A stretch of DNA of 64,000 bases, from the NCBI GenBank assembly GCA_919901745.1, contig CAKKPP010000005.1, forward strand, positions 33,850 through 97,849, in the 5' to 3' direction. The position numbers and the translations under genes are program-made. This DNA is from Chloroflexota bacterium. GTDB lineage: Bacteria > Chloroflexota > Limnocylindria > Limnocylindrales > CSP1-4. Under the pieces are notes generated by a model, which searched no databases, was not told where the DNA came from, and saw only the letters and a program-made list of their open reading frames with translations. Shown piece after piece: positions 1-14,933 of this stretch (its first letter is position 1; the number at the start of each line of letters is the position of its first letter).

Positions 1-190
1 GCGGCGGCGATGGCCCTCGGTGTCGTCGTCCGAGCCGGCGACCTTGGCCAGGCGGCGGCGATGGCCCTCGGTGTCGTCGTCCGAGCCGTCGACCTTGGCC
101 AGGCGGCGGCGATGGCCCTCGGTGTCGTCGTCCGAGCCGTCGACCTTGGCCAGGCGGCGGCGATGGCCCTCGGTGTCGTCTTCTGCGCTG
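1..190. repeat. 51-bp tandem direct repeat
   Basis: Units begin at about 1, 52, 103 and 154 with an exact period of 51 bp, a multiple of three, so copy-number change keeps the frame. The copies are almost identical in DNA, including silent positions. The array continues beyond the left edge. It lies wholly inside the minus-strand repeat-protein gene and is not a CRISPR array, because there are no unique spacers. Confidence 0.9.
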
Positions 191-204
191 CGCTTCTTCG
201 CCAT
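1..204 (-). CDS. 17-residue tandem-repeat protein, 3' end outside window
   Basis: The ATG at 204 is preceded by a good ribosome binding site (AAGGAGA, 212-218). After a basic start (MAKKRSAE) the protein consists of near-perfect copies of DDTEGHRRRLAKVDGSD: three full units and part of a fourth before the window ends. The unit is 51 bp and the DNA copies differ by about one base (one unit has KVAG for KVDG), so expansion looks recent. There is no signal peptide or membrane segment; the repeat alternates an acidic DDTEGH block with a basic RRRLAK block. I do not recognise the family. A structural low-complexity protein or a multi-core precursor peptide are both possible; the function is unknown. 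Confidence 0.7.
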   Translation of the reverse strand, partial: MAKKRSAEDDTEGHRRRLAKVDGSDDDTEGHRRRLAKVDGSDDDTEGHRRRLAKVAGSDDDTEGHRRR

Positions 205-358
205 GGCGAACTCTCCTTGATGGACTATCGGCGTGGTGCTGCCACCCGCCCATCTTGGACACGCCGAACGAGCGCGTCCAGCCCGTGTGTGACCAAATCC
301 CTGTCACCTGGATGACGTTCCGCGTGTCGACTGGGCCGCCGTCCGCAGTCGGGTGCTG

Positions 359-943: not shown

Positions 944-2116
944 TCAACCATCGACGACCCACAGGTCGTGGTCGGACCGGTTCAGGGCGTCGGGGCCGTC
1001 CGCCCCGCAGACGACGATGTCCTCGATCCGCGAACCGTAGCGCCCGTCGCGATAGATCCCGGGCTCGATGCTGAAGGCCATGCCGGCGCGGAGGGGCTGG
1101 GCGTTCCCGGCAACCAGGTACGGATCCTCGTGGGTTTCGAGCCCGATCCCGTGGCCGACCCGGTGGATGAATTGCGGGCCTTCGCCGCCGGCCGTGATGA
1201 CCTCTCGGGCAACAGCATCGACCCGCTCGCAGGGCACCCCCGGAGCGACGGCGGCCGTGGCGGCTGCCTGGGCCTCGCGGACGAGCCCGAAGAGGCGCAG
1301 AAAGTCGGCGTCGGGGCCATGCGCCGGATCGCCACCCGTGACCCACAGCGTTCGCGTGGTATCGGAGGCATAGCCGTTCAGCAGCCCGCCGATGTCGAGC
1401 ACGATGGGCTCACCGGCCCGGATGATCCGCTCGGATGCCTCGTGGTGGGGCGATGCCGAATTCGGGCCGCTGGCGACAATCGCGAACTCGGCGGTGTCGT
1501 GGCCCTCTGCGAGGAGGCGCTCGCGCACCTCGCGGCTCACATCGCCCTCCGTCCGGCCAACGAGGCGGCCGCGCGCGATCTGCTCCACGACCCGATCCGC
1601 CGCGTGCGCCGCCGTTCGCAGAATCGCGATCTCATCTGCGTCCTTGATCATCCGGATTTCGCTCAGGGCGGCCGTTGCCGATTCGAATTGAACCCCGGGC
1701 AGCGCAGCCTGTAGCGCCAACAGGTGCATGGCCCAGAGGCGTTCGGAGATACCGATCCGGTCCCCTGCCGCGGGTCGCCGCAGCCCAACCGTCGCCAGGC
1801 GCTCCGCGACGAGATCTGCCGGCGTATCCGTCTCGTCCCAGGGCACGACGTCGGCCCGCCTGTCCTGCACGATCGAGCAGCGGTGCGCGCCGGGCGCCTC
1901 GAGCCTGGGGACCACGAGGCTGATCCGACCGATCGCCGGGATGACCAGCATGGTGAGTCGCTCGAGCGGCAATGCCCGATATCCGGAGAGGTACTGGAGG
2001 TCGGCGCCGACGCCGATCAGCGCGGCCGCCAGACCCCGCTCGGCCACGATCGCCTGGGCCGCTGCGAGGCGCTCGACGTGGCGGATGGCCGGGATGGTGG
2101 GCACGGCCTCGATCAC
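944..2116 (-). CDS. M24 family metallopeptidase (Xaa-Pro dipeptidase/aminopeptidase P type)
   Basis: 390 residues, normal for PepQ/PepP-type enzymes that cut Xaa-Pro bonds in the cytoplasm. An N-terminal creatinase-like domain (about 1-160) is followed by the pita-bread catalytic domain. The five dinuclear metal ligands are visible: Asp in LDIGG (about 240), Asp in SDTTRT (about 250), His in HRVGHGIGLETHE (about 322), Glu in SIEPGIY (about 348) and Glu in RIEDIVV (about 362). The GTG start overlaps the upstream stop as GTGA (2113-2116), so it is translationally coupled to the receiver-like gene. A peptide-nitrogen recycling role is inferred. Whether it acts as a di- or aminopeptidase cannot be told from sequence. 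Confidence 0.9.
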   Translation of the reverse strand: MIEAVPTIPAIRHVERLAAAQAIVAERGLAAALIGVGADLQYLSGYRALPLERLTMLVIPAIGRISLVVPRLEAPGAHRCSIVQDRRADVVPWDETDTPADLVAERLATVGLRRPAAGDRIGISERLWAMHLLALQAALPGVQFESATAALSEIRMIKDADEIAILRTAAHAADRVVEQIARGRLVGRTEGDVSREVRERLLAEGHDTAEFAIVASGPNSASPHHEASERIIRAGEPIVLDIGGLLNGYASDTTRTLWVTGGDPAHGPDADFLRLFGLVREAQAAATAAVAPGVPCERVDAVAREVITAGGEGPQFIHRVGHGIGLETHEDPYLVAGNAQPLRAGMAFSIEPGIYRDGRYGSRIEDIVVCGADGPDALNRSDHDLWVVDG

Positions 2117-4092: not shown

Positions 4093-5969
4093 GACGGTCG
4101 GCTCGCTGATGCGGCGTCCTCGCCGGCAAGGAGGCGCATCGCCTCGGCCTCGATTTCGGCGATTCGGAAGGGCTTTCCGCGCACCTTGTTGTACCCGACC
4201 GCATCGACCAGGTAGCGCGCTCGCACCAGCAACAGCAGCTGTCCCAGATTGATCTCCGGAATCAGCACCCGCCGATAGGATCCGACGACCGTCCCGAGAT
4301 TCGCCGGGAACGGGTTCAGGTAGCGCACGTGGGCGTGCGCCACGCGCTGCCCGGCCGACTGGAGGCGCTCGACGGCGCTGCGGATGGCGCCGTACGTGGA
4401 GCCCCAACCGAGGATGAGCAGGTCGCCATCGGGTGGCCCAAACACGTCGAGGTCGGGAATGTCGTCGGCGATCCGGGCGATCTTCTCGTGGCGCAGGCGC
4501 TGCATCAGGTCATGGTTGTCCGGGTCATAGCTGACGTTGCCGGTGATGTCGGCCTTCTCGAGCCCGCCCACGCGGTGCTCCAGGCCGGGCGTGCCGGGCA
4601 CCGCCCACGGACGGGCCAGGGTGACCGGATCACGATCATACGGGTGGAAGCCCTGCGGGTCGGTCCGATTGGGGACGGCGATCGAGGGCAGGGCGGCGGC
4701 GTCCGGGATGGCCCACGGCTCCGCGCCGTTGGCGAGGAAGGCGTCGGACAGGTAGACCACGGGCGTCATGTACTTGAGGGCGAGGCGCCACGCCTCGAAC
4801 GCCATGTCGAAGCACTCACCGGGCGTGGCCGGGGCCACGACGGCCACCGGGGAATCGGAGTTGCGACCGAACATGACCTGGAGAAGGTCCGCCTGCTCGT
4901 TCTTGGTGGGCATCCCGGTCGACGGACCGGCACGCTGGACATCGATGACCACGAGCGGCAGCTCGACCATCACGGCCAGGCCCATCGCTTCGCTCTTGAG
5001 GGCGATACCTGGACCCGACGTGCCGGTCATGCCCATGCTTCCACCGTAGCTGGCCCCGATCGCGGCCCCGATCGCGGCAATCTCGTCCTCGGCCTGGAAG
5101 GTCCGGACGCCGAACGCCTTGTAGCCGGCCAGCTGGTGGAGGATGTCGCTCGCCGGTGTGATCGGATAGCTGCCGTAGAACAGTGGGCGCTCGGCCTTGA
5201 CCGACGCCGCGACGAAGCCGAGCGCTGCCGCCTCGTTGCCGGTGATCTGGCGATACCTGCCCGGTGCCAGCGATGCCGCTGGAACGACATATCGGCTGTG
5301 GAAGATCTCGGTCGTTTCGCCGAACGCGTAGCCGGCCCCGAGCGCGCGCTTGTTGGCCTCGACGATGATCGGCCGCTTGCCGAACTTGGCCTCGATCCAG
5401 CGGAAGGTCGGCTCCATGCTCCGCTCGTACAACCAGAACATCAGGCCCAGCGCAAAGAAGTTCTTGGTCAGGTCCATCTGCTTGTTCGTCATGTCCAGGC
5501 CCTGCAGCGCTCCCGCGTTGAGGGTGGAGATGGGAACCTCAAAGACGGAGTAGGCCGCAAGCGAGCCGTCGGTGAGCGGATTGGCCGCGTAGCCCACCTT
5601 GGTCAGGTTGGCCGGCGTGAACGCGTCCCTGTTGACGATCAGCGCGCCGCCGGCCGGCAGGTCCCCGATGTTCGACTTGAGGGCTGCCGGATTCATCGCA
5701 ACCAGGACGTCCGGCTCGTCGCCCGGGGTGTGGATCTCGCTGCTCGAGAAGCTCAGCTGGAAGCCCGATACGCCGGGCAGCGAGCCGGCCGGCGCGCGGA
5801 TCTCGGCCGGGTAGTCGGGCAGCGTGCTGATGTCGTTCCCGAAGACCGCCGCGGTCCGGGTGAACTGGGTACCGGTGAGCTGCATCCCGTCGCCGGAATC
5901 GCCGGCGAAGCGAATGGTGACGCGCTCGAGCTCCTGGGTGGCCGGAGCTCGTTCGGCGGTGTCGGTCAC
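4089..5969 (-). CDS. korA: 2-oxoacid:ferredoxin oxidoreductase subunit alpha (gamma-alpha fusion, KorA type)
   Basis: 626 residues, the length of fused gamma-alpha subunits. The N-terminal gamma domain has RFAGDSGDGMQLTG (about 21-34). The pyrimidine-binding alpha domain follows (about 230-430: YPITPASDILHQLAGY, QAEDEIAAIGAAIGASYGG, TGTSGPGIALKSEAMGLAV), then a C-terminal transketolase-like domain II (LLILGWGSTYGAI). Together with KorB it makes the heterotetramer that replaces or supplements the 2-oxoglutarate dehydrogenase complex. The GTG start overlaps the stop of the CBS gene (GTGA), and the stop overlaps the KorB start. Such KorAB enzymes occur in aerobic actinobacteria and others; a ferredoxin gene lies at 31410. 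Confidence 0.94.
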   Translation of the reverse strand: MTDTAERAPATQELERVTIRFAGDSGDGMQLTGTQFTRTAAVFGNDISTLPDYPAEIRAPAGSLPGVSGFQLSFSSSEIHTPGDEPDVLVAMNPAALKSNIGDLPAGGALIVNRDAFTPANLTKVGYAANPLTDGSLAAYSVFEVPISTLNAGALQGLDMTNKQMDLTKNFFALGLMFWLYERSMEPTFRWIEAKFGKRPIIVEANKRALGAGYAFGETTEIFHSRYVVPAASLAPGRYRQITGNEAAALGFVAASVKAERPLFYGSYPITPASDILHQLAGYKAFGVRTFQAEDEIAAIGAAIGASYGGSMGMTGTSGPGIALKSEAMGLAVMVELPLVVIDVQRAGPSTGMPTKNEQADLLQVMFGRNSDSPVAVVAPATPGECFDMAFEAWRLALKYMTPVVYLSDAFLANGAEPWAIPDAAALPSIAVPNRTDPQGFHPYDRDPVTLARPWAVPGTPGLEHRVGGLEKADITGNVSYDPDNHDLMQRLRHEKIARIADDIPDLDVFGPPDGDLLILGWGSTYGAIRSAVERLQSAGQRVAHAHVRYLNPFPANLGTVVGSYRRVLIPEINLGQLLLLVRARYLVDAVGYNKVRGKPFRIAEIEAEAMRLLAGEDAASASRPS

Positions 5970-6466
5970 GCGCCCTCGGACTCCTGCATGCGCTGATGCG
6001 GTCGAGGCGGAAGATTGAGCAGTTCCTCGGGGAAGGCCTCGGCCAGGAACTTGAGGATGTTCTGCGGCCGGACGACGCCGACGAGCATGCCCTCGTCATC
6101 GACCAGCGGTACGTTCCTGAATCGCCCGGTCTGCATCAGGATGATCGCGTCGCGCACCGGCTGATCCAGATGGAGCGTGTTGGGCGTGCTGTTCATGAGC
6201 GAATCGACCGGTCGATCGAGGTCGACATCGCGTCCGACGAGCTCGGCGAAGATCGATCGCTCCGTGAGGACGCCGAGGAGCCGCCCGTCGTCGCCCGTGA
6301 CGAGAACCGAGTCGCCCATCCCGCTCTGGCGAATCGCCTGGAGACAGACACCGAGCCTGGTTCCGGGTCGGACCGAGACGGGATCGAGCCGTCCAACCGA
6401 CTTGATCGGTTCGTCGAGCAGGGACGGGACACGCGTCACGACGGCGCGTTCGCTCAGGTCGCTCAC
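5966..6466 (-). CDS. CBS-pair protein leading the korAB operon
   Basis: 166 residues, GTG start. Two CBS motifs (about 24-80 and 88-150) are marked by SVLVTGDDGRLLGVLTERSIF and NVPLVDDEGMLVGVVRPQNILKFL; there is no other domain. Its stop overlaps the korA start, so it is co-translated with the oxidoreductase. A TACACT box lies six bases before the start, so the operon may begin as a leaderless message. The likely role is adenosine-nucleotide sensing linked to korAB, inferred from context only. The short charged tail (EELLNLPPRPHQRMQ) resembles tails of CBS proteins that bind partners, but I cannot assign one. Confidence 0.85.
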   Translation of the reverse strand: MSDLSERAVVTRVPSLLDEPIKSVGRLDPVSVRPGTRLGVCLQAIRQSGMGDSVLVTGDDGRLLGVLTERSIFAELVGRDVDLDRPVDSLMNSTPNTLHLDQPVRDAIILMQTGRFRNVPLVDDEGMLVGVVRPQNILKFLAEAFPEELLNLPPRPHQRMQESEGA

Positions 6467-6472
6467 GCTCCG

Positions 6473-6478
6473 AGTGTA
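6473..6478 (-). promoter_or_regulatory. Candidate -10 box, leaderless start of the korAB operon
   Basis: TACACT on the minus strand ends six bases before the GTG at 6466. There is no ribosome binding site in the gap. A transcript starting 6-7 bases after a -10 box would begin at the start codon. Confidence 0.5.
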
Positions 6479-6542
6479 GACGATTCGCCTGTTCCGCCCC
6501 GCCGGTCGCCGATCCGGCGGCGCCCGCGTCGACCGACCCTGC

Positions 6543-6548
6543 TAGCCT
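6543..6548 (+). promoter_or_regulatory. Candidate -10 box, leaderless start of the EamA gene
   Basis: TAGCCT lies seven bases before the ATG at 6556, with CCCGCGG between and no purine-rich ribosome binding site. It is divergent from the korAB operon promoter about 65 bases away. Confidence 0.45.
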
Positions 6549-6555
6549 CCCGCGG

Positions 6556-7521
6556 ATGGACCGCCGCCAAGCCGTCGGGTTTCTGCTGGTCGTCGTCTCG
6601 GCCGCGGCGTTCGGGTCCGGCGCGCTCTTCGCAAAACCCGTCTATGCGGCCGGCGTCGACTGGCACACGCTCTCGGCCTGGCGGTTCGGAATCGGGGCGG
6701 TTCTGTCGTGGGCCTGGGTCCTGGTGCGGGCCCGCGGCATCGGCAGCCTGCGGAGCTGGTCGCGCCGGCGAGTCGTCATCACGCTCGCGCTCGGATTGCT
6801 CTACGTCGGCAACTCGGGAACGTATTTTGCCGGCCTCGAGACCGTCCCGGCATCGCTCGCGGCACTCATCGTCTACATCTACCCGGCCATCGTCGCCGTC
6901 CTCGCGTTGCGCTTCGGACGAAGACTCGAGGGTCGTCGTGCGTGGGCGGCCCTCGGGCTGGCGCTCGCCGGCGTGACGCTGACCGTCGGCGCGATCGACC
7001 AGCGCACCGCGCCGCCCCTGGCCGGCCTGGCCCTGATCGCCGCGTCACCGGTCATCTACGCCGTCTGGATCGTCCTCGCGGCCCGCCTCTCCGGCGAACG
7101 ACGGGTGGCCGCTGCGAGCGAGGGCGCGCGCGGCGCCGACGCGGCCGTCGTGACGGCGCTCATGACCAGCGCGACCGCGGTGGCGTACTGGGCGAGTGCC
7201 CTTGCCGTGGGACGGCCGGTCCTCCCTGCCGAGATCCCGGCGGCGGCCTGGCCGGGGCTGCTCGGCGTGGGCGCCGTGTCGACCTTCGTGGCGATCCAGG
7301 CGTTCTACGCCGGCGCCCAGCGGGTCGGGGCTGCGCGGGCGGCGCTGGTCAGCACGATCGAACCCGTCTACACGATCGGGCTCGCCGCCCTGCTGTTGGG
7401 CGAGGTGCTCGGTCCCGTCCAGATGGTCGGTGGTGCGCTGATCCTCGCCGGGGTGGTCCTGTCCCAGGCGACGCCGGGGGCGATCGGGACCCGGCTCCGC
7501 GTACGCATCGCCGACGAATAA
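6556..7521 (+). CDS. EamA/DMT family transporter
   Basis: 321 residues with ten hydrophobic helices arranged as two EamA repeats (about 5-140 and 155-300), the usual size of drug/metabolite transporters in the inner membrane. The repeats end in the typical LIVYIYPAIVAVLALRFG and ALVSTIEPVYTIGLAALLLGE segments, with the proline that marks the family. The substrate is unknown; members export amino acids, nucleosides or other metabolites. It is transcribed alone, divergently from korAB, and converges on the HpcH/HpaI gene. Confidence 0.9.
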   Translation: MDRRQAVGFLLVVVSAAAFGSGALFAKPVYAAGVDWHTLSAWRFGIGAVLSWAWVLVRARGIGSLRSWSRRRVVITLALGLLYVGNSGTYFAGLETVPASLAALIVYIYPAIVAVLALRFGRRLEGRRAWAALGLALAGVTLTVGAIDQRTAPPLAGLALIAASPVIYAVWIVLAARLSGERRVAAASEGARGADAAVVTALMTSATAVAYWASALAVGRPVLPAEIPAAAWPGLLGVGAVSTFVAIQAFYAGAQRVGAARAALVSTIEPVYTIGLAALLLGEVLGPVQMVGGALILAGVVLSQATPGAIGTRLRVRIADE

Positions 7522-9095: not shown

Positions 9096-9637
9096 CCGCT
9101 CGGTCCCGCCATCCTCTCGCCGTGCCGCGCGGGTGATCGCGGCCGGGGCCGGGCGTCGCCGCGCCTTGGCCGGGTCGGAGTCGCCCGTCGCTCGGTCGAG
9201 GTCGCCGCGCCCCTTCGCCGGGCGTCGCCGCGCCCCTTCGCCGGGTCGGGGTCGGTGTCGCCCTTCGCCAGGTCGGTATCGCTCCCATGAATGACCTACG
9301 CACAGGCTCGCCGTCAGGTCCGGATTCGGTCACGCTTATCGAGGGCGCCATCGCTCCCATGCGTGCCACAAGGCCTGCCGTGCGATAAGCACGGGTGTCA
9401 ACCACGCCTATCTCGATCGCTACGCTCGCGGCAGCGATGGAGGCGATATCGGAACCGACAAGGCGCCGGCCGGACACGTCGAAACCGGGACCCACGCACG
9501 ATCCCGGACGAACGATGACACCTGGCCGATCCACGTCACCGCCACGCCCATCCCGACCGATCGTTGAACCTTTCCGGCGGTGCGACCATCTGTAGTGGGT
9601 GAAGCGCCCATCGGGGGCGCCGCCGAGAGGGTCGGCC
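9096..9637. other. 542-bp gene-free stretch with degenerate GC-rich repeats
   Basis: No convincing coding region on either strand. 9148-9280 holds four imperfect copies of a unit like GTCGCCGCGCCCCTTCGCC, two of them adjacent (about 9202-9248), and TCGCTCCCATG occurs at about 9280 and 9353. A 33-codon ORF at about 9289 has no ribosome binding site. The right end carries the candidate sigma-gene promoter. I see no tRNA, riboswitch or clear terminator. Confidence 0.5.
9565..9595 (+). promoter_or_regulatory. Candidate ECF-type promoter of the sigma gene at 9638
   Basis: TGAACCTT at 9565-9572 and a TAG at 9593-9595. The same two elements at the same spacing (TGAACGTT, TAG) lie before the ECF sigma gene at 13748. 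A GAAC -35 element is typical of ECF promoters, which are often autoregulated. Only two sites support this. Confidence 0.35.
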
Positions 9638-10979: not shown

Positions 10980-12209
10980 CTAGTCCGGGAACGCCTCCGG
11001 GCCTCGCTCCGCGAGCTCGGAGGCTTCCTGCTGCGCCGCCTCGCCAGTGGCCGGCAACCACGAGTAGGGGTAGCGATCATCGTCGAGAGCCATCGCCTCG
11101 CGGGTGATCAACAGCGGGTTGAACGTGTCGACCATGACCGCCAGCTCCTCCGTCGCCTCGCGGCCGATCGACGCCTCGGCCGTCCCCGGATGCGGTCCGT
11201 GCGGGATCCCGGCGGGATGGACGGTAAACGACGCGATGTCCACGCCGCGCCGGCTCATGAAGTTGCCGGCCACGTAGTAGATGACCTCGTCCGAGTTGAT
11301 GTTCGAGTGGTTGTACGGCGCCGGGATCGCCAGCGGATGGTAGTCGAACTTGCGCGGCACGAACGAGCAGACGACGAAGTTGCGCGCCTGGAAGGTCTGG
11401 TGGACCGGCGGCGGCTGATGGACCCGTCCGGTGATCGGCTGGAAGTCGGCGATATCGAAGCGGAACGGCCACAGGTAGCCGTCCCAGCCGACGATGTCGA
11501 ACGGATGGTTCGCGTAGTGGTAGGCCGTGATCCGGTCGCCGCTGCGCACGTGGACGACGAAGTCGCCGGTCTCAGTGTGCGGCTCCGCCCACTCCGGCGC
11601 ATGGAGGTCGCGCTGCGAGTACGGGGCATGCTCGAGCAGCTGGCCGTAGTCGTTCCGGTAGCGCTTCGGCGGCTCGAGCTCCGACGGGCACTCCAGCCAG
11701 AGCATCCGCTGCTCCACGCCCTGATCCGGTTCGAGCCGCCACGTCGTCCCGATCGGGAGCACGAGGTAGTCGCCGGGGTGGTACCGAAGCGGCCCGAAGA
11801 TCGTGTCGCAGACCCCTGACCCCTCGTGGACGTAGAGCATCTCGTCGGCGACGCCGTTGCGATAGAAGGTCCCGTCGGGCATCGATTCGGCCGGCCGAAC
11901 GACGCCGAATACGACATCTCGATTGAAGAACAGCGGGATCCGGCCGGTGACGACATCGCCGCGCGGCGGGACCGCCGCGGTGTTGATCAGGCGATGGCGG
12001 TGCAGACCGTCGTCGGCCGCTTCCCAGCGAACCTCGCGCACGGCTTCAATCTGATGGGTCCGGGTCGGCGGGACGAGGTGGTAGAGGAGCGAGCTGCGGC
12101 CGGTGAATCCCTCGACCCCGAACAGCTCCTCGGCGTAGAGCGAGCCGTCGGGGGCGCGGTGCTGGGTGTGGCGCTGCTGCGGGACGCTGCCGCGGCGGGC
12201 GTAGTACAT
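10980..12209 (-). CDS. hmgA: Homogentisate 1,2-dioxygenase, short bacterial type
   Basis: 409 residues. This non-heme iron cupin enzyme opens the ring of homogentisate to maleylacetoacetate in tyrosine and phenylalanine degradation. The N-terminus (MYYARRGSVPQQRHTQHR) and the central QPPPVHQTFQARNFVVCSFVPR are characteristic. Likely iron ligands lie in NHSNINSDEVIYYVAGN (about 315) and in HPAGIPHGPHPG (about 345). The ATG at 12209 is the first homologous codon; the frame is open further upstream but non-homologous. Pathway partners hppD (23062) and a FAH-family hydrolase (14930) lie on the same strand but not in one operon. Confidence 0.93.
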   Translation of the reverse strand: MYYARRGSVPQQRHTQHRAPDGSLYAEELFGVEGFTGRSSLLYHLVPPTRTHQIEAVREVRWEAADDGLHRHRLINTAAVPPRGDVVTGRIPLFFNRDVVFGVVRPAESMPDGTFYRNGVADEMLYVHEGSGVCDTIFGPLRYHPGDYLVLPIGTTWRLEPDQGVEQRMLWLECPSELEPPKRYRNDYGQLLEHAPYSQRDLHAPEWAEPHTETGDFVVHVRSGDRITAYHYANHPFDIVGWDGYLWPFRFDIADFQPITGRVHQPPPVHQTFQARNFVVCSFVPRKFDYHPLAIPAPYNHSNINSDEVIYYVAGNFMSRRGVDIASFTVHPAGIPHGPHPGTAEASIGREATEELAVMVDTFNPLLITREAMALDDDRYPYSWLPATGEAAQQEASELAERGPEAFPD

Positions 12210-12215
12210 GAAACG

Positions 12216-12243
12216 ACTGGCCTCCTCGCGTGAGGAGGCCAGT
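12216..12243 (-). terminator. Perfect 12-bp hairpin between anti-sigma gene and hmgA
   Basis: ACTGGCCTCCTC / GAGGAGGCCAGT with a four-base GCGT loop. It starts 34 bases after the anti-sigma stop at 12277 and ends seven bases before the hmgA ATG. The run after it (CGTTTC) is only weakly T-rich. It may terminate the sigma operon, or act as a leader hairpin for hmgA. Confidence 0.6.
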
Positions 12244-12276
12244 CTAGTGGCTGGGCCCTGGCACAGGATCGACGGG

Positions 12277-13200
12277 TCAGGGCTCGATCTGGATCGATTC
12301 GACGATCGCCCGGAGCTCGGCCTGACGCTGGGGCGACGTCCCGACATAGTCCGTGCTCTGGACCACGACGCGAATGCCATCGACATCGAGGATCCAGAGG
12401 TGCCAGCGGCTGCCGGGTCCCTGGGCATAGATCCCGGGTTCCCATGGGAAGTAGGACGCCGGACAGGCGGAGATATCGGACGGGACCTGCAGGTCGACGT
12501 ACTTCCCCGCGTACCCCGCAAGCGTGATGTCGATGGGCGTCGTCACGTCAAGCTTGGGATGATCCACGAGGGCGCTGACGAAGTCGTCGACGGTCGGACC
12601 GACTGGGATGTTCGGTGGCGGCTCGTCGCCACAGGGCTCGGCATACAGCCCGCCGCCCCGCGAGAAGATCAGGCCAGCCCCGCCGGGCGCCGCCTTTCCC
12701 CCATCGGCCAGGTAGATCGAATGAACTGAGCCCCCGATCCATCCGTCGGGAACGATGAACATGAAGCGGATCGTGTCGTCCGCGGCCGTTTCGCTACATC
12801 CGGCCTGCCCAAAGCAGACCCCCATGCCACCAGGACCAAAGGGCGTTTCGCCGTATTGGCCCGCTGGCAGCAGCTGCTCCGGCCGGATGACCCCGACCGT
12901 TGGCGATGGGGTCGGTGACGGGGTCGGGGAGGGCGCTGAGCCGGGCCCACCGAATGACGATCCGCCGGGACCGAAGGCATAGATGGCGCCGCCGATCACG
13001 AGCACGCCGATGACGGCGGCCGCGGCGACGCGGGCAAGTGTGGGCATGTCTCGGAACCTCCACGGGATCCGAAGATCCCGCTCTTGTGATGTCGTTTCGA
13101 TGTGGAGGAGCGCGGCTTCCACGGCGCGGTCAGGCGCCTGGGTCGGGCCGTCCTCGAGCCACGATCGAGCGGCGCGTTCGAGCGAGCGATCGTCGTTCAT
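12277..13200 (-). CDS. Anti-sigma-like single-pass membrane protein
   Basis: 307 residues, ATGA overlap with the sigma gene. The N-terminus has AARSWLEDGPTQAPDRAV, the shared motif of this family, then a helix (about 55-76, VAAAAVIGVLVIGGAIYAFG), a Ser/Pro/Thr repeat linker (SPTPSPTPSPT), and an external domain of about 190 residues with several cysteines. The external part shares GPTVDDFVSAL, YAQGP, a DVDGIRVVV strand and a final AIVESIQIEP with the protein at 21373, so both belong to one family. Sequestration of the neighbouring ECF sigma until an external signal arrives is the likely role; this is inferred. Confidence 0.72.
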   Translation of the reverse strand: MNDDRSLERAARSWLEDGPTQAPDRAVEAALLHIETTSQERDLRIPWRFRDMPTLARVAAAAVIGVLVIGGAIYAFGPGGSSFGGPGSAPSPTPSPTPSPTVGVIRPEQLLPAGQYGETPFGPGGMGVCFGQAGCSETAADDTIRFMFIVPDGWIGGSVHSIYLADGGKAAPGGAGLIFSRGGGLYAEPCGDEPPPNIPVGPTVDDFVSALVDHPKLDVTTPIDITLAGYAGKYVDLQVPSDISACPASYFPWEPGIYAQGPGSRWHLWILDVDGIRVVVQSTDYVGTSPQRQAELRAIVESIQIEP

Positions 13201-13792: not shown

Positions 13793-13823
13793 CTATGACG
13801 GGAGGATGGACCCGGAACGTTCA
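13793..13823 (-). promoter_or_regulatory. Candidate ECF-type promoter of the sigma gene at 13748
   Basis: On the minus strand TGAACGTT starts at 13823 and TAG ends at 13793, the same elements and spacing as at 9565-9595. The first three bases overlap the stop codon of the upstream gene on the same strand. Confidence 0.35.
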
Positions 13824-14933
13824 GCCGCTACGGCCGCGGGCGTCCACGGGCCATGTCCCGATCACGGTCTCACCGCGGACGGCAACAAAGGAGTCGAAGA
13901 GATCCACGACCGGGCAGACGTGGTTCGGGGCGATGGCGACGATCTCGCCGAGATGTGGCGCCGGGGTTCCGGACGGAATCCGGACGATGCCGTGGTAGTC
14001 ATTCACCCGTTCGATGACGGCATTCGGATAGGCGCGCACGAGTCCATGACCCTCTAGGTACGGCGCCCGATCCTTGGTCAGCGTCTTGGCGCCCGCATCG
14101 ATGACGACGTGGCCGGGGACCGCCATGCTGACGACGGTCGCGGCGACGTGAAGGGCCACGTCATCGAGTCGGATCGAGCCAAGCACGGCCTGCTGACGAT
14201 CGCCGAACACGTAGGTCCCGGCGCGAATCTCCGTGACCAGATCGGCAGCGGCCTCAATCATCGTCGGCGTCGACCCGGCGCTGACGACTTCACAGGCGAA
14301 ACCCGCCGCGCGAAGGGCGATCGCAGCTTCGCTGAGCGCCCGCACCTCGTCCGCGGCCGCGTCCGCGTGCGCTTCCGGTCTCGCGTACGAGTGGCCGCCA
14401 TGCGTGAACACCCCAACGACATCCAGCTCCATCGAACGAGCGGCCTCGGCGACGCGCACGGCCGATTCGGTCGAACCGACGCCGGTCCGATGCCCGCCGG
14501 AGTCCACTTCGACGAGGACCCGAAGTGGGCGCTCGAAACCCTCGACGGCGGCCGCCAGGCGCTCCGCTCCCGCCACCGAGTCGATCCCGACGGCGATCGA
14601 CGTTTGCTCGTGAAGAGCGCGCAGTCGCGCGGCCTTCGGGCCGACCGCCCAGACCGTGTACGCGAGGAAGATGTCCTCGATCCCGGCGGCGGCGAAGACT
14701 TCAGCCTCGCCGAGCGTCCCCACGGTGATCCCGCGCGCCCCGGCGTCCAGCTGCCCACGGGCGATCGCCACGCTCTTGTGCGTCTTGGCGTGCGGACGAA
14801 GCGCGACACCCAGGGGTGTGAGTTGCTCGACGAGACGGCGCGTGTTCGCCTCGGCGATGTCGAGGTCGACGACAAGAGCCGGCGTGTCAATCCCGGGCGG
14901 AAGGAACGGATCGAACCGATCGAAGCCGGTCAC
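13821..14933 (-). CDS. D-threonine aldolase / D-serine dehydratase-like PLP enzyme
   Basis: 370 residues. An alanine-racemase-type barrel (about 15-250) carries the PLP lysine in RPHAKTHKS (about 47-55). The C-terminal domain has the zinc His and Cys of this family in VNDYHG and PNHVCPVVDLFD. Enzymes of this family cleave D-threonine or D-3-hydroxy amino acids to glycine and aldehyde, or dehydrate D-serine. The ATG overlaps the stop of the FAH-family gene (ATGA), so the two are co-translated. That pairing is not part of known tyrosine breakdown and may indicate handling of a related hydroxy amino acid. Confidence 0.88.
   Translation of the reverse strand: MTGFDRFDPFLPPGIDTPALVVDLDIAEANTRRLVEQLTPLGVALRPHAKTHKSVAIARGQLDAGARGITVGTLGEAEVFAAAGIEDIFLAYTVWAVGPKAARLRALHEQTSIAVGIDSVAGAERLAAAVEGFERPLRVLVEVDSGGHRTGVGSTESAVRVAEAARSMELDVVGVFTHGGHSYARPEAHADAAADEVRALSEAAIALRAAGFACEVVSAGSTPTMIEAAADLVTEIRAGTYVFGDRQQAVLGSIRLDDVALHVAATVVSMAVPGHVVIDAGAKTLTKDRAPYLEGHGLVRAYPNAVIERVNDYHGIVRIPSGTPAPHLGEIVAIAPNHVCPVVDLFDSFVAVRGETVIGTWPVDARGRSG

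Follow-up and report, generated by a model that had tools for sequence, protein, structure and literature searches.

A split repeat gene at the edge of the window

The window is a 64,000-nucleotide stretch of the genome of a soil Chloroflexota bacterium of the Limnocylindrales (G000:C5:33850-97849), and a minus-strand open reading frame, of which 68 residues are visible, leaves it at its left edge (Table 1). Tandem-repeat detection and reading of the ORF place 3.5 copies of a 51-bp unit, matching at 99%, in positions 1-180, so that the near-identical 17-residue units described in an earlier, sequence-only reading of this DNA are real; a Shine-Dalgarno-like sequence agrees with the ribosome binding site that it had reported. 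The visible protein is free of cysteine.

Table 1 Features of the repeat locus. Positions are those of the window unless a contig is named.
Feature	Position	Strand	Remarks
DTEGH repeat gene, 5' part	1..204	-	MAKKRSAEDDTEGHRRRLAKVDGSDDDTEGH...; visible ORF MAKKRSAEDDTEGHRRRLAKVDGSDDDTEGHRRRLAKVDGSDDDTEGHRRRLAKVAGSDDDTEGHRRR; ATG at 204-202; continues in G000:C5:33422-33749
Shine-Dalgarno-like AAGGAGA	212..218	-	7 bases ahead of ATG; direct reading
Motif copy 1, EDDTEGH	163..183	-	converted from C5:34012-34032
Motif copy 2, DDDTEGH	112..132	-	converted from C5:33961-33981
Motif copy 3, DDDTEGH	61..81	-	converted from C5:33910-33930
Motif copy 4, DDDTEGH	10..30	-	motif search of genome
Assembly gap inside repeat gene	C5:33750-33849		exactly 100 N
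Xaa-Pro-peptidase-like gene	944..2116	-	390 aa; name presumed from sequence appearance; ORF cluster C4 in L006, L098, L099
GC-rich tandem repeat	9147-9276		23- to 27-bp units (TRF)

Extension of the contig to the left, which had been proposed together with a count of the repeats, revealed the assembly gap and, beyond it, four further motif copies, a non-repeat tail with a C-terminal helix domain and a normal stop codon (DDDTEGHSFLPDPLSSRLLAQAREREIQGRLRDRSLEKESRNPFRRSKG). At least eight motif copies are visible, four on either side of the gap, and neither a frameshift nor an early stop occurs in the readable sequence on the two sides of the N, both of which are open. The same genome contains a second repeat gene on contig C27, likewise split by exactly 100 N (MSHHEKPGPREGIMMKNSDDDVEGHGFKMKIDGSE...DTEGHGFSAKRKVDGSEDDTEGHGFSAKRKVDGSEDDTEGHGLSAKRK).

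Searching the 3.04-Mb genome for degenerate motif codons gave seven exact matches in the window gene and one in the C27 gene, whose remaining copies match with one mismatch. As exact motif codons occur in the repeat genes alone, and as homologues in the same frame exist elsewhere, the repeat ORF is not a product of chance. The gap within the gene, and the fact that other frames over the repeat are also open, would fit a spurious or decaying ORF running across a GC-rich tandem repeat. That such an ORF accounts for the gene is scarcely credible in view of the ribosome binding site, the homologues in 32 family genomes that keep the same frame (absence from relatives had been named as a ground for doubt), the conserved C-terminal domain and the silent differences among motif copies; third-position differences numbered 179 in 224 pairs, in a comparison whose search pattern itself left little room for changes at first and second positions. 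Of the five places returned by the first genome search, two (C6 and C5:11575) were rejected as unrelated coding sequence by appearance.

The window gene lies near metH and near Xaa-Pro-peptidase-like and 2-oxoacid:ferredoxin oxidoreductase-like genes, all named by appearance. One relative (L098) carries a complete DxEGH-Crp-GAF-S8 cassette in this same neighbourhood. In the window's own genome, the second repeat gene, on C27, is accompanied there by the genes for the Crp-type regulator, the GAF protein, the S8 protease and the permease, and another genome (G003) similarly has a repeat gene in the shared neighbourhood and its S8 gene on a different contig. The window copy stands in this neighbourhood without the remaining cassette genes; a maturase or transporter gene, for which a search nearby had been suggested, does not adjoin it.

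A family of motif-repeat proteins

Neither the repeat protein nor its C-terminal domain gave anything above noise in Pfam or NCBIfam, and the repeat protein had no match in PADLOC, in agreement with the earlier reading, which knew of no such family. No description of the family appeared among the papers listed by searches of the open PMC literature, in which, judged by titles, no bacterial-peptide paper bears DVEGH or DTEGH. Homologues were sought by protein search among 107 genomes of the window's family (28 with a match) and with profile A1, built on the C-terminal part (DxEGH and then NPxLxxxLAxARExDIQRxLR...RPxKK), among 126 genomes of the order (31 with a match). The union of both searches, from which the weak partial match of G007 was excluded, places a confident motif protein in 32 family genomes.

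The family motif is D(D/E)D-[V/T]-E-G-H. In 48 distinct proteins with at least two copies (161 motifs), copies are most often 15 residues apart, the spacing varying between 12 and 58 except for a single value of 138, and the eight residues after the motif are 57% identical within proteins as against 11% between proteins. The search pattern itself dictated columns -4 to 0 of the motif, whose conservation therefore carries no independent weight; the D/E preference at -5 and -6 and the fall in conservation past the His do carry it, with 2.7 bits at -5, 1.4 at +1 and 0.7 at +2 in unforced columns. The "DTEGH core" of the sequence-only reading has proved conserved and recurrent, but it is better read as a tag between variable segments than as an active core. 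The length of the protein differs between genomes, probably as a by-product of tandem duplication; in one relative, the uninterrupted gene (L104:3851-4306) encodes 152 aa. In an AF2 model of a full-length relative, the repeats have a pLDDT of about 50 and one C-terminal helix spans residues 115-137; the repeat protein is thus predicted to be disordered apart from this single helix.

Several related ORFs were noted along the way. A DVEGH repeat ORF in another genome (L186:9357-9920, G151) has His-rich segments (KHTHHGAPKHVHHGAPRQDE) and possibly a metal-binding product. Directly ahead of the Crp gene on C27 lies a 79-residue ORF (MNDYMQMHIAQDRIRERLAEAQRERLVRSARAAQ...; L007:4010-4249) that has no Pfam match and contains a helix like the one at the C-terminus of the repeat proteins, and a similar-looking ORF of 72 residues occupies the same place in L090 (9015-9233).

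The motif accompanies a protease cassette

Twenty-two loci, two from the window's own genome and 20 from relatives, were clustered by ORF. Eighteen of the 22 have an S8 cluster, and 18 a Crp-like and MFS/cNMP cluster. A GAF cluster is present in 17; in the own genome, the GAF gene was recognised separately. Pfam assigns the products to Peptidase_S8, GAF, cNMP_binding with HTH_Crp_2, and MFS_1 with a cNMP-binding tail, and PADLOC returned only generic subtilase (1.4e-19) and cNMP-domain effector matches for the cassette. No modifying enzyme was recognised among the neighbour genes of the 22 loci in Limnocylindrales-type cassettes, nor an ATP-grasp ligase among the listed cassette neighbours. 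The own genome gave no match to PF05147 (LanC-like) and none to YcaO.

The S8 protein matches PF00082 (E 6.6e-29) and aligns to subtilisin BPN' (E 1.5e-32). It is compact, at about 275 residues, with a conserved N-terminal PAWSEPF and, by eye, no obvious signal peptide. Catalytic Asp52, His94 and Ser238 are present in 15 of 15 aligned sequences (alignment A2). AlphaFold models it with a pLDDT of 78; residues 1-28, which include PAWSEPF, fall under 50, so the model says nothing about that segment. The nearest NCBIfam profiles are those of mycosin, QhpE and, weakly, PatA, all below their cut-offs.

Among the 107 family genomes, 44 have the S8 gene, which is found in all 32 with a confident motif protein as compared to 12 of the 75 others (Fisher p = 3e-16 when G007 is entered as a motif genome lacking S8). 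Across 84,980 species genomes, a scan gave 308 relatives of S8, and linkage was assessed at the best 80 of these, some of them in genomes already included in the 107, so that the two counts overlap. The 80 loci belong to Chloroflexota metagenome-assembled genomes (Limnocylindrales, Anaerolineales, Thermomicrobiales), Ktedonosporobacter rubrisoli and one Thermoleophilia metagenome-assembled genome. An ORF with at least two motif copies was found at 48 of them, with strict D[VT]EGH at 36, and each of six rearranged control motifs was found at none. The motif ORF lies within 3.5 kb of S8 at 46 of 47 measurable loci and at 8.0 kb in the other. The putative precursor gene is, in other words, linked to a dedicated protease, as would be expected of a RiPP precursor with an S8 leader peptidase. 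More broadly, S8 at E <= 1e-70 occurs in 40 of 400 sampled genomes of the phylum.

The same motif ends lanthipeptide-type leaders

In Anaerolineales-type loci, the ORF beside S8 starts with a helix-like leader, LTALRxxLxxDERxxLDxxI, which is followed by EVxAH. The latter is single in L149, L154 and L172 and repeated in L150-L153, L166 and L168; L159 has EVEGH. A profile of this leader (A5) had no match in six genomes of one order, four of which carry S8, an empty result that says nothing on absence.

In Ktedonobacteria and others, precursors with what we take to be NHLP leaders, several of them in lanthipeptide clusters, lie near the genes for S8 and GAF proteins; Pfam gave only a sub-threshold NHase_alpha match to a leader of this type. 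One such locus (L176, Ktedonosporobacter rubrisoli, NZ_CP035758) has RamC_N plus kinase and LanC-like proteins as neighbours. In the Ktedonobacteria-type precursors, the leader ends in [DE]V-x-[GA]-[YF] directly before the core, as in GEVSGY|LVGNCTVTCILTECTITSL, TDVAGY|SADLTISITICGLSCLLSL, ADVAGY|AVPQCIGSFCFVDTCFITL, SEVSGY|AHALFTDSWGCVKA and GDVEGY|TYTVSWLTCCCIRTSCCLQFS, where the bar marks the putative cut. Several tagged precursors have cores rich in Cys, Ser and Thr after the tag, and DVQGY or EVQGY precursors occur in L193, L195 and L196. Both the Ktedonobacteria-type and the Anaerolineales-type precursors have a conserved leader-end motif before a variable core, whereas in the window-type protein the motif is repeated and there is no leader. 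Ktedonobacter LanM/LanT clusters have been described previously (PMC3951391), and the available excerpts of that paper contain neither GAF nor the term "peptidase S8".

A leader-only profile that omits the motif (A8) was run on 47 genomes of the class of Ktedonosporobacter. At the 30 loci fetched, [DE][VT]x[GA][YF] stands at the leader end in 19 and is lacking in seven, with no printable ORF in the other four. The tag was found in 19 of 21 cases from S8-bearing genomes vs none of five from S8-less genomes; since about half of the 19 tagged rows had built the profile, and since the S8-less set is small and its matches weak, the comparison is suggestive rather than strong.

These leaders bear on two further explanations of the repeats. 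The Asp, Glu and His of each DxEGH stand at i, i+2 and i+4 and could chelate a cation, as in the metal-binding array that the sequence-only reading had listed, and the relative L186 has very His-rich segments. Yet Y or F replaces the His in precursors beside related S8, one Anaerolineales-type repeat protein has shifted forms (DEAHAN, for example) that chelation could hardly tolerate, and the cassette has no recognised gene for a metal transporter; a metal array is accordingly very unlikely. It is only a little less improbable that the protein is a hydrophilin-like, stress-protecting polyampholyte, which would shield or condense macromolecules and have its operon partners incidentally. The very hydrophilic composition, the alternating acidic and basic blocks and the predicted disorder would all suit such a role, which however leaves unexplained why DxEGH is invariant, why the protein so strictly accompanies one S8 subfamily and why leaders end in [DE]VxGY.

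Two small ORFs of these loci were also noted. In L195, a radical-SAM-like ORF (11314-12312; Cys-rich start, by eye) lies near a small ORF with ADVQGY (13813-14151), and this may be a radical SAM RiPP cluster that uses the same S8. In L196, a small ORF (6925-7233) comprising a leader, EDVQGY and a Tyr/Trp-rich C-terminal part adjoins the GAF and S8 genes.

A candidate multi-cassette precursor

The DxEGH motif is most likely a processing tag and the window gene most likely a multi-cassette precursor. A multi-core precursor had been among the options raised from the repeats, and it is favored by the dedicated S8-GAF cassette beside the motif together with the Y/F form of the motif at the end of lanthipeptide-type leaders, although no modifying enzyme is seen beside the window-type cassette. 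We consider it reasonably probable that the whole forms one system, in which a disordered precursor is cut by S8 at D-[V/T]-E-G-H under the control of the GAF and Crp-type proteins and its product is exported by the MFS permease. The S8 protease of the partner operon, which is on C27 in the window's genome, would recognize the tag ending each cassette and is predicted to cut after the His, with V/T at P4, E at P3, G at P2 and H at P1. Cleavage would release many copies of one short, charged peptide of about 17 residues, here approximately RRRLAKVDGSDDDTEGH and possibly trimmed. The GAF protein and the Crp-type regulator would control both the protease and the operon, and the permease, which has a cyclic-nucleotide-binding tail, would carry the product out of the cell.

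Several observations weigh against the precursor reading. The Limnocylindrales-type repeat proteins are leaderless and have no recognised modifying enzyme beside them, the window copy lies away from its protease, and 32 of the best 80 S8 loci have no multi-copy motif ORF, several having a single copy and others none, in part owing to contig ends. Docking, rather than cleavage, could moreover be the role of the motif, with the repeats remaining uncut as multivalent sites for the S8 or GAF protein and the chain serving as a scaffold, a sponge or an inhibitor to tune a regulatory protease. Linkage and co-occurrence fit docking equally well, short multivalent motifs in a chain predicted by AF2 to be disordered would serve it, and Crp and GAF are sensor-type partners. 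We nevertheless regard docking as unlikely: the same motif ends lanthipeptide-type leaders, where a cut is expected, and the segments between motifs are homogenised within and different between proteins, as for a product, although tandem duplication alone also homogenises.

For the processing reading, branched residues at P4, small residues at P2 and aromatic-ring residues at P1 suit the subsites of subtilisins. With these features, D-[V/T]-E-G-H fits the layout of the PatA, ElxP and AmyP tags. In the available excerpts of PMC10885120, the cut made by PatA follows G(L/V)E(A/P)S (PMC4282754 is also among the sources on S8 leader peptidases), the cytoplasmic S8 protease ElxP reads (D/E-5)(L/V-4)X2(Q-1), and AmyP, an S8 protease that removes class III lanthipeptide leaders, has the motif (T/S/A)EVE. 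The PatA motif resembles D(V/T)E(G/A)H, and both systems would have a short tag per cassette and a subtilisin cut, and ElxP shares with the protein studied here both its peptidase family and the layout of its tag. The differences are also clear. Here P1 is H, Y or F and the tag is repeated, whereas ElxA has a single leader. AmyP is like the present S8 in that the latter can also adjoin RamC_N, kinase and LanC-like genes, but the Chloroflexota subfamily has a GAF partner and an N-terminal PAWSEPF.

Cyanobactin precursors of the PatE type hold several cassettes each. The present proteins differ from them in their many near-identical copies, in tags that end in H, Y or F and in cassette neighbourhoods where neither a PatG-type macrocyclase nor a YcaO heterocyclase could be recognised; the PatA profile TIGR03895 gives the S8 only a weak local match (2e-8 to 4e-6, 25.8-33.4 bits vs a cut-off of 421). 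In NCBIfam, the QhpE profile (NF049966) gives one of the best matches to the S8 (103-107 bits, E about 1e-30) but stays below its curated cut-off of 165 bits, and no other QhpE-pathway gene was recognised nearby. With neither a LanC-like nor a YcaO match in the window's genome, the window gene is classed as neither lanthipeptide nor cyanobactin, and its Cys-free visible protein also departs from the former. The system would work like an S8-processed RiPP precursor, and no membership of a named class is claimed for it.

More tentatively, and with some doubt on our part, the arrangement could represent a prohormone-like system widespread in Chloroflexota, in which species-specific linear peptides, many near-identical copies per polyprotein, are cut out at D[VT]EGH by a cytosolic, GAF-partnered subtilisin and exported as signals or antimicrobials with no modifying enzyme, while the S8 subfamily with Y/F tags serves modified RiPPs elsewhere in the phylum. 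As the S8 subfamily is common to H-tag repeats and Y/F-tag modified RiPPs, one processing module would then serve both. Eukaryotic prohormones such as yeast alpha-factor are likewise made as tandem peptide copies that are freed by a subtilisin-family protease. The present system differs in that it is bacterial, has a cytosolic-type protease and a D[VT]EGH tag, and shows no recognised secretion signal. If the repeat proteins are processed without modification, they would correspond in bacteria to multi-copy prohormones, and the segments that differ between species suggest species-specific signals or weapons. The analysis provides a predicted function and a testable cut site for an unnamed family of soil and sediment bacteria that are mostly uncultured. 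S8 plus [DE][VT]x[GA][HYF] offers a marker for Chloroflexota peptide products that would escape models of modifying enzymes.

An S8 pocket residue and the tag type

Residue 148 of S8 aligns to the S1-wall Gly of subtilisin BPN', presumably Gly127. Of 54 H-type loci, 53 have Ser here, and all 5 Y-type loci have Gly, L176 having been dropped from the comparison as a duplicate of L181. Gly is also found in L179 (EDVAGF) and L193 (DVQGY), which are among the 28 S8 proteins without an assigned tag type (22 Ser, 6 Gly). Ser148 with H tags and Gly148 with Y/F tags make a specific hypothesis on substrate choice. The correlation with P1 is confounded with phylogeny, and ancestry alone may explain the split. 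It is also broken by L177, a further point against the precursor reading, where an S8 with Gly148 (5733-6629) is nonetheless 3.5 kb from a DTEGH/DVSGH ORF. Separately, two genomes have two S8 copies each, every copy near NHLP-leader precursors (L181-L182 in G447, L183-L184 in G403), and those of G447 are about 15 kb apart.
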